Positions 39,174 to 47,641 of a stretch of 64,000 bases of DNA are shown here, one piece after another. The notes beneath the pieces are model-generated. The model searched no databases. It was not told the DNA's origin and saw only the letters and a list, made by a program, of their open reading frames with translations. Source of the DNA: Halalkalibacter suaedae. GTDB taxonomy: Bacteria > Bacillota > Bacilli > Bacillales > Bacillaceae_D. The position numbers were made by a program, and so were the translations under genes. The first letter of the stretch is position 1, and the number at the start of each line of letters is the position of its first letter. Location: contig NZ_JAGKSQ010000011.1 of the NCBI RefSeq assembly GCF_017939705.1, positions 1 through 64,000 of the forward strand. Direction: 5' to 3'.

Positions 39174-39235
39174 AGTAGTTACAATTCGTCGTCATGACAT
39201 AACAGTACGGTCAGACGAATTCATATCATACGTTC

Positions 39236-39326
39236 CGCTCCACTTCCCTACGCTAGTATTATCTAGATCAGGTTAAGGGTTAAGGTGAAAACACCTCTCT
39301 CAGCTTAATAGCACCCCTAGTGGAAA
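39236..39326 (-). ncRNA. TPP riboswitch (THI element)
   Basis: Read leftwards the core landmarks appear in order: AGGGGTGC, GCTGAGAGAGG, then AACCTGATCTAGATAATACT and AGCGTAGGGAAGTGG. The CTGAGA and ACCTGATCTAGATAATACTAGCGTAGGGA blocks are diagnostic for TPP. It governs ykoEDC-tenA. Confidence 0.97.
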
Positions 39327-39428
39327 TAAGTATAATGTTTGTCATGTTCATTGAAACATAGGAACATGAATGTAGCAACTTTTTTTTGAAAATTAGTAAC
39401 ATTTTTTCATAAATAGTGTTAAATACGC

Positions 39429-43885: not shown

Positions 43886-44866
43886 ATGGATAAGAAAACA
43901 AAACCGAATGAACCGATCGTGACGCATTTATTTACAGCTGACCCGTCTGCCCATGTGTTTGAAGGAAAAATTTATATTTACCCTTCACATGACCTTGATC
44001 ATGATGGTCCAACTAATGACAATGGTGACCAATATGCGATGGAGGATTATCATGTCCTTTCGATGGATAACTTCGATTCCCCTTGTGTAGACCATGGTGA
44101 AGCCTTGCATGTAAGGGATATTCCATGGGCAAAACAGCAGCTTTGGGCCCCAGATGCTGCTTTTAAAAATAATAAGTATTACCTATTCTTCCCTGCTAGA
44201 GATAAGGACGATATTTTCCGCCTAGGTGTTGCTACTAGTTCAGCTCCAGAGGGTCCTTTCACACCACAAGAGAATTATATACCTGGAAGCTATAGTATTG
44301 ATCCTGCAGTATTTGTAGATGAAGATGATAGAGCTTATATCTACTTCGGTGGTCTATGGGGTGGACAATTAGAGAAATGGCAAACAGGGGAATTCCTATC
44401 AGATGCAGAAGGACCAGAATTGACTGAACCTGCCTTAGGGCCGAGAATTGCTGAGTTAAGCGAAGATATGCTAACATTCAAAGAATCCCCTACCGAAATC
44501 TCTATTATTGATGAGGATGGTAACCCTATACTAGCAGGTGATGAAGAACGTCGTTTCTTTGAAGGTGCTTGGGTTCACAAATATAATGATTATTATTACC
44601 TTTCATACTCAACTGGTACCACTCATAAAATCGCCTACGCGATAAGCAAAGCTCCACAGGGACCTTTTACTTATAAAGGAACCATTTTAAATCCTGTGAT
44701 TGGTTGGACGACACACCATTCTATCGTACAATTTGAGGATAAGTGGTATTTATTCTATCATGATTGTTCGTTATCAGACGGTGTCGATCACAAACGTTCA
44801 GTTAAATACACAGAAATTACGTATAATGCGGATGGAACGATTCAAACGATCGACCCTTATAAGTAG
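43886..44866 (+). CDS. Glycoside hydrolase family 43 enzyme
   Basis: 326 residues, a single five-bladed GH43 domain without signal peptide, so cytoplasmic. The three catalytic acids are recognisable: Asp in TADPSAHVFEGKIYIYPSHD (general base, near residue 20), Asp in SIDPAVFVDEDDRAYIY (pKa modulator, ~130) and Glu in FFEGAWVHKYNDYYYLSYS (acid, ~220). GH43 enzymes release arabinose or xylose from oligosaccharides. The ATG at 43886 follows GAGGAG. Together with the XylF-like binding protein 2.4 kb away it hints at use of plant pentose polymers, though no transporter is present here. Confidence 0.9.
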   Translation: MDKKTKPNEPIVTHLFTADPSAHVFEGKIYIYPSHDLDHDGPTNDNGDQYAMEDYHVLSMDNFDSPCVDHGEALHVRDIPWAKQQLWAPDAAFKNNKYYLFFPARDKDDIFRLGVATSSAPEGPFTPQENYIPGSYSIDPAVFVDEDDRAYIYFGGLWGGQLEKWQTGEFLSDAEGPELTEPALGPRIAELSEDMLTFKESPTEISIIDEDGNPILAGDEERRFFEGAWVHKYNDYYYLSYSTGTTHKIAYAISKAPQGPFTYKGTILNPVIGWTTHHSIVQFEDKWYLFYHDCSLSDGVDHKRSVKYTEITYNADGTIQTIDPYK

Positions 44867-44876
44867 AATTATTATT

Positions 44877-44919
44877 GTACAAAAAAGACTCAGGATCGTA
44901 CTCCTGAGTCTTTTTGTAC
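44877..44919. terminator. Bidirectional terminator
   Basis: GTACAAAAAGACTCAGGA / TCCTGAGTCTTTTTGTAC, a near-perfect hairpin between the convergent GH43 and FusB-like genes. Confidence 0.9.
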
Positions 44920-44929
44920 GAGATACAAC

Positions 44930-45592
44930 TTATTTTTTCAGTATTTCAATGAAATCATATAACTTATCTAAAGTGGTGATATTTTGATTACACTTCACAG
45001 AATCCTTACAGATATAATTCCCTCTATTTGTGTAAGTGTCTACACCACTCTTGACACTCGTCATAAATAATCCAACATCTTCATGTCTATTACAAATTGC
45101 ACAAATTCCTTTTACATTACCTCTAAACGTCCCCTGAAAACCGATTAATTTTCCATTTAATTCAATAATCAAATATTTCCTCTCCGAACGAATATCGTAC
45201 CAGCTTATATAGGAAAAATCTCTGAAATCCATTTCATCAAAGGATGGAATTTTTAATTTTTTTGCTTTTGGAAATAACTTTGTAACGGTTTTCTCAGTTG
45301 TTTTTGTAAAGGGTCTAACGAGTGATTTAAGATGTTTCACCAACTGTTCAGCTTGTATCTCGTCTTTTAATTCAATAACCTCATTCATTAATAGTAGTTG
45401 CTTCTCATTCAAAGTGAGAAATAGATTATTGATGTTTTCAAATGAACTCGCTTTAAGGGCATTTAGAACATCGGGGTCCCTACTTGTAACATGAGCTTGA
45501 ACAAGTTTTTTAATCTCATATCTAATAAAGTTGTATTGGTCACTCCTGATAAAAGGCTCCATCTTCAATCCTGTAATTTCATTATTTTTCAT
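44930..45592 (-). CDS. FusB-family elongation factor G-binding protein
   Basis: 220 residues. The N-terminal ~110 residues are helical (SDQYNFIRYEIKKLVQAH), as in FusB/FusC. The C-terminal domain has SYISWYDIRSERKYLI and a four-Cys zinc site, GICAICNRHED and YICKDSVKCNQ. FusB proteins bind EF-G and free it from stalled, fusidic-acid-locked ribosomes. Chromosomal relatives in Bacillus and Listeria have the same activity. The ATG follows AAGGAG with nine bases between. A leader peptide and long hairpin precede it, and control by ribosome stalling is likely, as reported for plasmid fusB. It probably lowers susceptibility to fusidic acid or rescues EF-G in other stresses. Confidence 0.87.
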   Translation of the reverse strand: MKNNEITGLKMEPFIRSDQYNFIRYEIKKLVQAHVTSRDPDVLNALKASSFENINNLFLTLNEKQLLLMNEVIELKDEIQAEQLVKHLKSLVRPFTKTTEKTVTKLFPKAKKLKIPSFDEMDFRDFSYISWYDIRSERKYLIIELNGKLIGFQGTFRGNVKGICAICNRHEDVGLFMTSVKSGVDTYTNRGNYICKDSVKCNQNITTLDKLYDFIEILKK

Positions 45593-45638
45593 TTATTTCA
45601 GCTCCTTATTTTCAGTAAATAATTCAAATTCAATAAGG

Positions 45639-45730
45639 GCAGAGCCGAGACAGGACAAGAGGAACATATTTGGCGATATTAAAAAAGTCTACCTCATCCA
45701 AAGTATCGCCTTCCTACATCTAGGCTCTGC
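45639..45730 (-). promoter_or_regulatory. Candidate translational attenuator hairpin before the FusB-like gene
   Basis: Outer arms GCAGAGCC (45730-45723) and GGCTCTGC (45646-45639) pair perfectly. Pairing continues inside through AGAT/GTCT and AGGA/TCCT, and an inner GGCGATA/TATCGCC stem caps the structure. No T run follows, so it is not an intrinsic terminator. A GTTCCT within the 3' part can pair with AGGAGC of the gene's ribosome site. Confidence 0.65.
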
Positions 45731-45775
45731 ATGAGACGTTACAGATGCTGACAAATAAGGATGCTTATATGCCAT
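45689..45775 (-). CDS. 28-residue leader peptide of the FusB-like gene
   Basis: ATG at 45775 lies seven bases after AGGGGGTG. The product begins MAYKHPYLSASVTSH and ends ILWMR before a TAG. The reading frame runs through the 5' arm of the attenuator hairpin, so a ribosome moving or stalled on it would open the structure. A 13-residue frame starting eight bases earlier is possible but worse spaced. No similarity to known leader peptides is claimed. Confidence 0.6.
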   Translation of the reverse strand: MAYKHPYLSASVTSHAEPRCRKAILWMR

Positions 45776-45966
45776 TTCATATCACCCCCTTAAAGATAGA
45801 TAATTATATTATATAATAGCCAATACCTTTGAGTTAATCACCTTTCAACCCTTTCTCATTGTAGGTGGAATTTCATTACTATCCTTCTTCATAACACAGA
45901 GACTTACAATAAAATATTTTACATTATTTTCAAATAAAATGCTGAATTCTAGCGAAAAAAAAGATA

Positions 45967-46208
45967 GAGGCTGGGACATAACTAAAGCGCTAACTAAAAT
46001 ACCGAATAATGCAATCACGTAGCGGATGAAATATACGGAGACTCCTGCGGGACCTAAAAGAGGCCACTGAAAAAGGTATAATTTCCACCTTTTTTAGTGG
46101 CCTTACCGGCTTCACGCGGAAAGCGAAGTATATTTAAGGAGCGGTTTACGTCCGCCAACCACCATTGCTCGGATTTTCTATTAGTTAAGTCAATTTTGTC
46201 CTAGCCTC
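45967..46208 (+). repeat. Large intergenic repeat, copy 3 (centre replaced by a mini-palindrome)
   Basis: Starts GAGGCTGGGACATAAC and ends TTTTGTCCTAGCCTC. The outer blocks agree with the other copies, but the middle GGGTGAGACC...GAGGAGGCTC part is missing and the palindrome at 46060-46104 stands there. Confidence 0.88.
46060..46104. repeat. Mini-palindrome family, copy 3
   Basis: GAGGCCACTGAAAAAGGT...ACCTTTTTTAGTGGCCT, inside the large repeat. No target-site duplication is visible here, and about 40 bases of the host repeat are lost. Confidence 0.8.
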
Positions 46209-46222
46209 TATCCCTATCCTCT

Positions 46223-47641
46223 TTAAAGAATAAATGTCACAATTGTATATAAGACAGTTGTGATACCGGCAGCGATCAGTGCTGGTTTTAATTTATATTT
46301 AGCGTATTCTATGACCGAAAGGCCTAGTATTTTTGCAATTGTATTTGTATCATCACTTAATGGAGATGCAAAAGCACCAAATGACCCACTTGCAAACACC
46401 GCCCCAATAACTAGAGGTAAGGACACATCACCCGTAGTAGCAAGTGCTACCCCGAGTGGCATTAAAATCCCCCATGTTCCCCATGCAGATCCAATAAAAT
46501 AAGATACAGCAGCTCCGAATAAAAAGATAAGTGGTGCTATAAACATTTGCGGGATCCAGCCGGTATGTGCTGTCACAAATCCCGAAAAACCTAAATCATC
46601 TGTGATTGATGATAATCCCCAAACGATTGATAATAATAAAATAACTGACATTAGGTCATTTCCACCTTGTATGAAGCTATCAATTAAGTTTACAAGCTTA
46701 AACCGTTGTATCAAGTAGAAGAATATTGATACTAGTGTTGTAATCAGAAGGGCAATGACCATTGCATCAAGTACATTTGCTCGAATAAATGCCTCAAACG
46801 GCCCAACCCCCTTTTCATAGCCATCCCACCATGTCAAAAACAATGTCAAACCAATTACCAGAATAAGGGGGACAAGAAGATTCAGAGGTTTAATAGGTAA
46901 ATCCTTTGCAACAACAGGATGGCAATCATGCCAATCCTCCTCTTCATCTTCAACTTCCTGCTCATCAATTTGCATCGGTGCATCGGACTTTGTTTTTGCA
47001 TGATGAAAAAAGCTTAAGTAAATCCCTAAAACAATCGTGACAATTGCAAAGAAATTAAATGGTATGCTTTGAATAAAGAGTGAATAAGGATCTATTTCGA
47101 TTCCTTCGTTTTCAGTTGCGATTTGGATAATCGAGACCATATAACCAACAAAAGCGGTTGCAACTGGAATTAAGACAATGACAGGAGTCGCAGTTGTCTC
47201 AATAATGAAACCGAGCTCCTCTGTCGTCATTTTGACTTTTTTTAGTAGCGCTCTCATAATTGGAGCAATAGTTACGAAACGAAACGTAGGTGCACTGAAT
47301 GTCCCAATAGTTGAAACATATGTAAGGAGCAGAGCTTGCTTTCTGGTCTGAATTCGCTCAGCTGCCTTTTCTACAAAACCTCTAATTCCTCCTGTCATCT
47401 TAATCATGCCAACCAGTCCTGAAAAGGCATATAAGAACACAATAATCTTAATATTATTTTCATCAATCAGGGCTTGAACTACATAGACAAACATTGTTTG
47501 TATTCCACCAAGGACAGTAGGGTCAATAAGATATGAACCCACTAATAATCCAAGAAATAGAGCAGGAAGCACCTGTTTTGTATAAATAGCAACTGGTATG
47601 ACAACTAAAAATGGGATAATCGATAGCCAGCTTGATTCCAT
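46223..47641 (-). CDS. NhaC-family Na+/H+ antiporter
   Basis: 472 residues with about 11-12 membrane segments. Typical NhaC features are FLYAFSGLVGMIKMTGG, the conserved GTFSAPTFRFVTIAPIMRALL region and SYFIGSAWGTWGILMPLGVAL. A charged loop with DEQEVEDEEEDWHDCH lies mid-protein on the cytoplasmic side. NhaC proteins expel Na+ at alkaline pH, and some paralogues exchange organic acids. AGAGGTAGG precedes the ATG. It is a single gene. Confidence 0.88.
   Translation of the reverse strand: MESSWLSIIPFLVVIPVAIYTKQVLPALFLGLLVGSYLIDPTVLGGIQTMFVYVVQALIDENNIKIIVFLYAFSGLVGMIKMTGGIRGFVEKAAERIQTRKQALLLTYVSTIGTFSAPTFRFVTIAPIMRALLKKVKMTTEELGFIIETTATPVIVLIPVATAFVGYMVSIIQIATENEGIEIDPYSLFIQSIPFNFFAIVTIVLGIYLSFFHHAKTKSDAPMQIDEQEVEDEEEDWHDCHPVVAKDLPIKPLNLLVPLILVIGLTLFLTWWDGYEKGVGPFEAFIRANVLDAMVIALLITTLVSIFFYLIQRFKLVNLIDSFIQGGNDLMSVILLLSIVWGLSSITDDLGFSGFVTAHTGWIPQMFIAPLIFLFGAAVSYFIGSAWGTWGILMPLGVALATTGDVSLPLVIGAVFASGSFGAFASPLSDDTNTIAKILGLSVIEYAKYKLKPALIAAGITTVLYTIVTFIL

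Follow-up and report, generated by a model that had tools for sequence, protein, structure and literature searches.

The DNA analysed here, referred to as the window, is a stretch of 64,000 nucleotides from Halalkalibacter suaedae (contig NZ_JAGKSQ010000011.1 of assembly GCF_017939705.1, positions 1 to 64,000 of the forward strand). A short leader reading frame, a set of complementary hairpin arms and a FusB-type gene follow one another in this window, all of them on the minus strand (Table 1). The product of the gene contains the Pfam domains EF-G-binding_N and FBP_C, both above cut-off, and matches Far1 in the PDB with an E-value of about 1e-34. Its CxxC...CxxxxxC cysteines align with those of Far1 and are presumably zinc-binding, as in a zinc finger. 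The NCBIfam exception cut-offs for fusB, fusC, fusD and fusF (375-450 bits) are not reached by the window protein, which scores 104-123 bits. Based on these matches, the product can be assigned to the FusB family of EF-G-binding proteins, outside the named resistance alleles fusB/C/D/F.

Table 1. Positions of the leader, its RNA helices and the FusB-type gene in the window
Feature	Positions	Strand	Sequence or remark	Basis
Promoter-like site, sigma-70 type	45808-45837	minus	TTAACT-18-TATAAT, just 5' of the leader	consensus only, 10 of 12 matches
Leader ribosome-binding site	45781-45791	minus	AAGGGGGTGAT	sequence; GGNGGT conserved
Leader ORF, 28 codons	45689-45775	minus	MAYKHPYLSASVTSHAEPRCRKAILWMR, then stop; ATG at 45775, stop at 45689	frame kept in relatives
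H0 5' arm	45770-45774	minus	UGGCA, takes in UG of the leader start codon	covarying start hairpin
H0 3' arm	45749-45753	minus	UGUCA	window variant UGGCA:UGUCA
H1 5' arm	45725-45735	minus	CUCAUGCAGAG, inside the leader frame	alignment
H1 3' arm	45693-45703	minus	CUUUGGAUGAG	alignment
H2 5' arm	45723-45730	minus	GCAGAGCC, GCAGAG common to H1	alignment
H2 3' arm	45639-45646	minus	GGCUCUGC; its GGCU has the alternative partner AGCU (45600-45603)	alignment
H3 5' arm	45704-45710	minus	GGCGAUA	alignment
H3 3' arm	45672-45678	minus	UAUCGCC	alignment
H4 5' arm	45632-45638	minus	CCUUAUU, covers the gene's ribosome site	fold and alignment
H4 3' arm	45604-45610	minus	AAUAAGG, overlaps the gene's ribosome site AAGGAG (45602-45607)	fold and alignment
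Whole RNA element	45600-45740	minus		R1 112.7 bits, E 4.6e-20; R2 101.5 bits; window sequence among the sources of both models
FusB-type EF-G-binding protein, 220 aa	44930-45592	minus		Pfam and PDB matches

The surroundings of the leader were scanned for further signals of expression. Promoter-like sites, scored by consensus match only, numbered 7 in the region against 5.9 in shuffled sequences. A simple, limited terminator scan of positions 44800-46300 listed no site on the minus strand and two sites in all, both on the plus strand; a hairpin with A and T runs 3' of the FusB-type gene, at about 44880-44915, was missed by the scan and recognized by eye. A transcription terminator within the leader was rejected, since the simple scan gave none. 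Between the leader and the neighbouring antiporter gene, positions 45955-46230 are occupied by an interspersed repeat with GAGGCTGGGACA-like inverted ends. At least 59 full or partial matching stretches of this repeat were found in the genome when 40 of 247 candidates were scored, some of them being the two strands of one palindromic part.

An initial annotation of this DNA had described a well-initiated 28-codon frame running through the 5' arm of a hairpin without a T run, with perfect outer and nested arms, before a FusB-type EF-G-binding gene starting some 50 bases further on. Most of this description holds. The frame is present with a good ribosome site, the outer arms GCAGAGCC and GGCTCTGC and the nested arms GGCGATA and TATCGCC pair exactly, the Pfam domains and the Far1 match bear out the gene, and its start lies 46 bases beyond the outer 3' arm. 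The proposed pairing of GTTCCT (45660-45665) with the AGGAGC of the gene's ribosome site was rejected: GTTCCT is unpaired in the predicted minimum-energy fold, where CCTTATT pairs with the ribosome site instead, and it is this latter partner that is conserved in relatives. The window also has a second ATG at 45780 (45776-45780), which opens an overlapping 13-codon frame (MKWHISILICQHL) behind the same ribosome site. Its equivalent is absent from the other 12 of 13 aligned leaders, so that the frame starting at 45775 is the common one.

Taken alone, the window hairpin is unusual only modestly. Its fold stability corresponds to z = -1.68, with 13 of 200 shuffled sequences equally stable, and nested arms as perfect as these, 8-mers around 7-mers, arose in 70 of 3000 dinucleotide shuffles. 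It is the conservation across relatives that takes the element far beyond chance. A genome search for FusB-type proteins identified relatives in 6 of 13 genomes of the genus, 11 of 41 of the family and at least 174 of 397 of the order; a contig search with the single protein gave 2 loci only. From 42 loci, 13 leaders with the same layout were selected on reading the upstream sequence and by motif, and were used to build a covariance model (R1). This seed excluded fusB loci that lacked the motif close upstream, many of which were later found to have it before a gene of the CD3324 family. R1 detected the element in at least 138 of 397 genomes of the order (E up to 0.1), which is about a third, in 94 of 398 genomes of the class (E up to 0.01) and in 8 of 41 genomes of the family, while a second covariance model (R2) detected it in 11 of 398 genomes of the phylum, 10 of them within the class and one outside; in all these counts the order, class and phylum samples overlap, the window's genome and the model sources are included, and the filters of the large scans lose weak matches. 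The same comparison, which the initial annotation had proposed, found that relatives keep both the leader frame and the pairing.

The genes that follow the element are few in kind. Among 195 examined copies, 191 directly precede a fusB-like or CD3324-family gene. In the first set of 140 copies, 85 are followed by CD3324 and then a fusB-like gene, 27 by fusB, 24 by CD3324 with no fusB in the fetched stretch and four by neither directly. The 55 further copies come mainly from other families of the class (40 regions, 14 R1 loci and one plasmid record, a subset of the places matched) and precede fusB in 23 cases, CD3324 plus fusB in 15 and CD3324 in 17. Taken together, 112 of the 140 copies are placed ahead of a fusB-type gene, either directly or with CD3324 in between. 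The earlier reading is upheld as regards a conserved structured leader before a FusB-type gene, and its proposal of translational control is consistent with such a leader; the element is not specific to fusB, since a CD3324 gene directly follows it in 109 of the 140 copies. The CD3324 family (NCBIfam NF040785) consists of small proteins that weakly resemble Mor-type HTH proteins, below the Pfam cut-off. In the window's genome a single element was detected and no CD3324 gene was matched; the B. subtilis genome used as a control has one CD3324 gene.

The distribution of copies shows several particular cases. One locus (L130, G147:C4) contains CD3324 and fusB-like genes and has the element twice, in identical copies 765 bases from each other, as if recently duplicated. 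Two genomes (G063 and G106, with loci L135, L146, L151, L153, L156 and L170) and several genomes of family f50 contain two to four divergent copies each; the fetched copies from multi-copy genomes each precede CD3324 or fusB and perhaps form a small regulon. The single copy outside the class (L251, genome G1008) precedes a CD3324 gene, and its helices are rewritten by compensating changes. At a locus in the same genus as the window (L004, L007 and L073; G011:C16:17869-18660) the fusB-like gene is interrupted and the leader element still scores 123.4 bits. There are also fusB-like genes with no detectable element nearby (for example L010-L012).

Helix conservation was assessed on a sequence-only alignment (A5) of 100 of the 134 usable rows from 140 matches, after removal of six matches without upstream sequence or a clear gene start and of 34 near-duplicates. 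Changes were counted against 500 shuffles per helix, which leave relatedness in place. Five helices keep 82-99% of their pairs. The leader-start hairpin (H0) is 82.1% paired with 48 double-changed cells against a shuffle mean of 19.6; the local leader hairpin (H1) is 99.0% paired, with 5 against 0.1; the long-range helix (H2) 96.5%, with 6 against 0.6; the nested helix (H3) 97.3%, with 10 against 1.1 and all six pairs double-changed; and the helix over the gene's ribosome site (H4) 92.9%, with 6 against 1.5. The closing pairs CAUUUCU:AGAAAUG and GGCU:AGCU are together 83.0% paired, with 15 double-changed cells against 9.0. Counted as pairs and not as cells, the double changes do not clearly exceed the shuffles for H0 (365 of 500 shuffles reach the observed number), H4 (149 of 500) and the closing pairs (66 of 500). 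The covariation of H4 is the weakest among the helices and falls below that of H1-H3; one slid version of its register scores higher (0.112 vs 0.101) and several have more double-changed cells. In the first 13 sequences, about 95% of cells were paired and covariation was not clearly above the shuffles. The search model already held H2, H3 and H4, and the search therefore favours copies that keep them, whereas H0 and H1 were not part of that model.

Some distant copies retain these helices with quite different letters. By eye, copies from families f50 and f90 and L251 keep H1, H2 or H4 in this way (for instance, H4 as CCUUAAAA:UUUUAAGG), and L251 keeps all of H1-H4 with other bases. The GCAAAGCC/GGCUUUGC segments of H2 display very strong primary conservation in A5. 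In the window, H2 differs from this consensus GCAAAGCC:GGCUUUGC by a double change from A-U to G-C, and H1, which contains a single G-G mismatch and a single G-U pair, has a predicted probability near 0. Both H1 and H2 use the leader arm and cannot coexist; each of these mutually exclusive helices is conserved, with compensatory changes. The ribosome site of the gene is likewise predicted to be closed by H4 pairing, a closure conserved in relatives.

The leader frame overlaps a structural arm, as in translational attenuators, and is kept open in relatives. The GGNGGT of the leader ribosome site is nearly invariant across the 100 A5 copies (at least 90%). The leader peptide belongs to a family most of whose members read [S/T]HAKP over the 5' arm. 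With starts restricted to those reading into the arm, the chosen start was in the HAKP frame in 85 of the 100 copies, in the second frame in nine and in the third in two, with no start in four. The distance from start to arm is 31, 34, 37, 40 or 43 in 83 of the 85 HAKP-frame leaders; the loop directly after the arm varies modulo three, with 63, 21 and 16 of the 100 copies in the three classes. Starts picked by the ribosome site alone were available in all but six of 186 copies, and 166 of these 180 leaders read through the arm, compared with 173 of 360 for the other two frames of the same stretches. A stop at +20 to +29, just beyond the arm, occurs in 32 of the 180 leaders. Since the leader sequences vary and 15 of 100 are outside the HAKP frame or without a clear start, no single stall codon is evident.

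The recurrence of the same arrangement in many relatives, with matching base changes, makes it very probable that the foldable leader RNA is a real and so far uncatalogued control switch. We consider it reasonably probable that the element is gated by its leader peptide and acts at translation, with a leader ribosome stalled early permitting H2 and H3 to form and easing the block on the gene. In such a scheme, a normally moving leader ribosome would sit on the arm, or H1 would re-form behind it, so that no H2 would form and the gene would remain closed. An early stall around codons 9-11, caused by EF-G locked by fusidic acid or by another translocation block, would cover the base of H1 and leave GCAAAGCC free, allowing H2 and H3 to form. 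Otherwise the 3' arm of H2 can pair elsewhere, GGCU binding AGCU and, in roughly half of the relatives, CAUUUCU binding AGAAAUG; these pairings shut the remainder of the ribosome site together with the start codon. Formation of H2 and H3 would remove this extra closure, and the translated FusB would clear the stuck EF-G. According to a review (PMC12493156), EF-G stays on the ribosome for a shorter time when FusB acts, whether or not fusidic acid is present, and a translocation block is therefore the likely signal; the pUB101 precedent and the downstream genes point the same way, and from them we infer a response to fusidic acid or another inhibitor.

Folding with a leader ribosome placed at different positions agrees with part of this scheme. 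For the free RNA, equilibrium folding of the 100 copies gave mean probabilities of 0.65 for H2 and 0.29 for H1, with H2 predominant in 67 of 100 copies, and a closed default state therefore needs a kinetic argument. With the P-site near codon 9, H2 reached 0.93 (over 0.5 in 95 of 100 copies) and H1 about 0. A ribosome on the arm abolished both H1 and H2 (H2 = 0), with a slight rise of the GGCU:AGCU closing pair from 0.10 to 0.15-0.18. The probability of H4 was 0.73-0.76 and about equal in every ribosome state, so that the folding model never frees the ribosome site; this is the main weakness of the scheme. The mean cost of opening the segment from the ribosome site to the start codon, calculated for 128 copies, was 9.0 kcal/mol in the free RNA; it fell to 7.6 when the ribosome stood near codon 9 and rose to 10.0-11.5 when the arm was occupied. 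In 116 of the 128 copies, opening was cheaper near codon 9 than at positions 19-28. A second low of 7.9-8.6 appears at positions 73-79, beyond the stop of most leaders, and the minima fall at -11 to -2 in 59 of the 128 copies and at 70-79 in 41. Access to the ribosome site alone, calculated for 130 copies, also peaked at the early position, and the level there was low (0.29 vs 0.23). In the window, the opening cost was 5.1 in the free RNA, 2.0 with the P-site at codon 11 and 7.0-8.8 at positions 1-13, and was also low earlier (3.0 at -26 and 2.7 at -17).

Among the other explanations, the order of events described for ermC-type attenuators survives best. Here H1 and H4 would form together in the off state, and a ribosome stalled on the leader arm would free the 3' arm of H1 (AUGRGG) to capture CCUUAU and so release the ribosome site, which is the scheme given for pUB101 fusB and ermC in the accessible parts of the published accounts. 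In A5, 90.6% of the AUGRGG:CCUUAU cells are paired and 5 are double-changed, compared with 1.1 for the shuffles; the pairing outscores its slid versions and is possible in most Bacillaceae-like copies. However, its predicted mean probability is at most 0.05, exceeding 0.3 in at most 6 of 100 copies, and is low even before the ribosome site is transcribed. Several f50 and f90 copies, with GCAUAGAG or GCAUGGAG arms, and L251 were also seen by eye to keep H1 and H4 by compensation while losing AUGRGG:CCUUAU, and we regard this order as unlikely. In another explanation, favoured by the H4 site staying closed in all folding states, translation of the leader or its failure would alter the stability of the mRNA or the pausing of RNA polymerase and not access to the ribosome site. 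VmlR in B. subtilis combines several layers, pausing included, as far as its available description goes. This explanation seems improbable given that the pairs over the ribosome site and start codon are conserved and that the simple scan lists no terminator-like site on the minus strand.

An RNA that responds to a ligand or a protein, for instance to CD3324 in an autoregulatory loop, and in which the leader frame is secondary, would account for the very strong primary conservation of the GCAAAGCC/GGCUUUGC segments and would suit the small size and weak Mor-type HTH likeness of CD3324. We find it very improbable, as the leader frame is kept and the window's genome has the element but no detected CD3324 gene. 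A chance hairpin over an ordinary 5' untranslated region, compatible with the weak window-only shuffle statistics, is refuted by conservation, since the element recurs in genomes of the order and class and its helices covary.

The preferred scheme, a leader-gated switch opened by an early stall, has one of its closest known counterparts in the fusidic acid-induced fusB leader of the S. aureus plasmid pUB101. According to the accessible parts of two accounts, this gene is regulated by translational attenuation with stalling of drug-inhibited ribosomes (PMC12493156; PMC12190993), and the regulation of FusB homologues is stated in the available text of the review to be not known (PMC12493156). 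The two leaders are alike in having a short frame with its own ribosome site before a FusB-family gene and, by eye, complementary stretches in and after the leader. They differ in that the pUB101 peptide, MLKDITYLKLLDLEYKMLCS, lacks SHAKP, and the GCAAAGCC/GGCUUUGC, GGCGAU/AUCGCC and CCUUAUU motifs were not seen there by eye; its upstream stretch (L199) matches neither R1 nor R2. The pUB101 leader is thus analogous in principle and outside the present RNA family. The ermC-type attenuators, as far as the available accounts describe them, also have a leader frame, alternative stems and a ribosome site closed in the off state. In contrast to these, the present element has two exclusive conserved partners of the arm together with a hairpin at the leader start; the 2:3 rescue stem is not universal in the family, and no fixed stalling peptide is evident.

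Similar comparisons were made with other leaders. Those of fusB-like genes in Listeria and Enterococcus also combine small leader frames and hairpins before EF-G-binding genes but have no match to R1 or R2. The fusB upstream stretches of pUB101, Listeria, Enterococcus and Priestia were all rejected as family members for lack of such a match, while a Paenibacillus one matches the models with 67.6 and 73.8 bits. The vmlR leader of Bacillus subtilis, likened by description and not by sequence, is in its available description also an upstream control region responding to ribosome-targeting drugs; it differs in controlling another gene and in including transcription attenuation.

At the gathering score, Rfam 15 has nothing at the element and gives only a TPP riboswitch in the window (39228-39328, minus strand, 77.3 bits), an ordinary find. 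In E-value mode, searches with sets of 8 and 5 loci gave no family at the element and one weak match each, namely the nematode snoRNA ceN114 (E 0.58) and, at a place away from the leader, sau-19 (E 0.043). A literature search, with most subscription journals outside its scope, did not turn up any account of a leader of this kind among Bacillus relatives; it gave only unrelated nematode work for CD3324, and nothing relevant for these genes in two RNA-discovery papers. Because there is no Rfam 15 match and no description in the literature searched, and because the other fusB leaders (pUB101, Listeria, Enterococcus and Priestia) are unmatched, we regard the element as a new RNA family.

We propose tentatively, at somewhat less than even confidence, that Bacilli possess a hitherto undescribed family of RNA switches that would pick between two conserved, exclusive folds according to where the leader ribosome stands, and so control an EF-G-rescue module, made up of CD3324 and FusB or of FusB alone, in response to failed translocation in general and beyond fusidic acid. 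The element offers a defined RNA whose helices and leader can be tested; it occurs in about one third of the order's sampled genomes (at least 138 of 397), and it ties the CD3324 family to EF-G rescue by operon position. These results suggest that inducible protection of EF-G may be an old chromosomal trait of Bacilli that extends beyond hospital plasmids.
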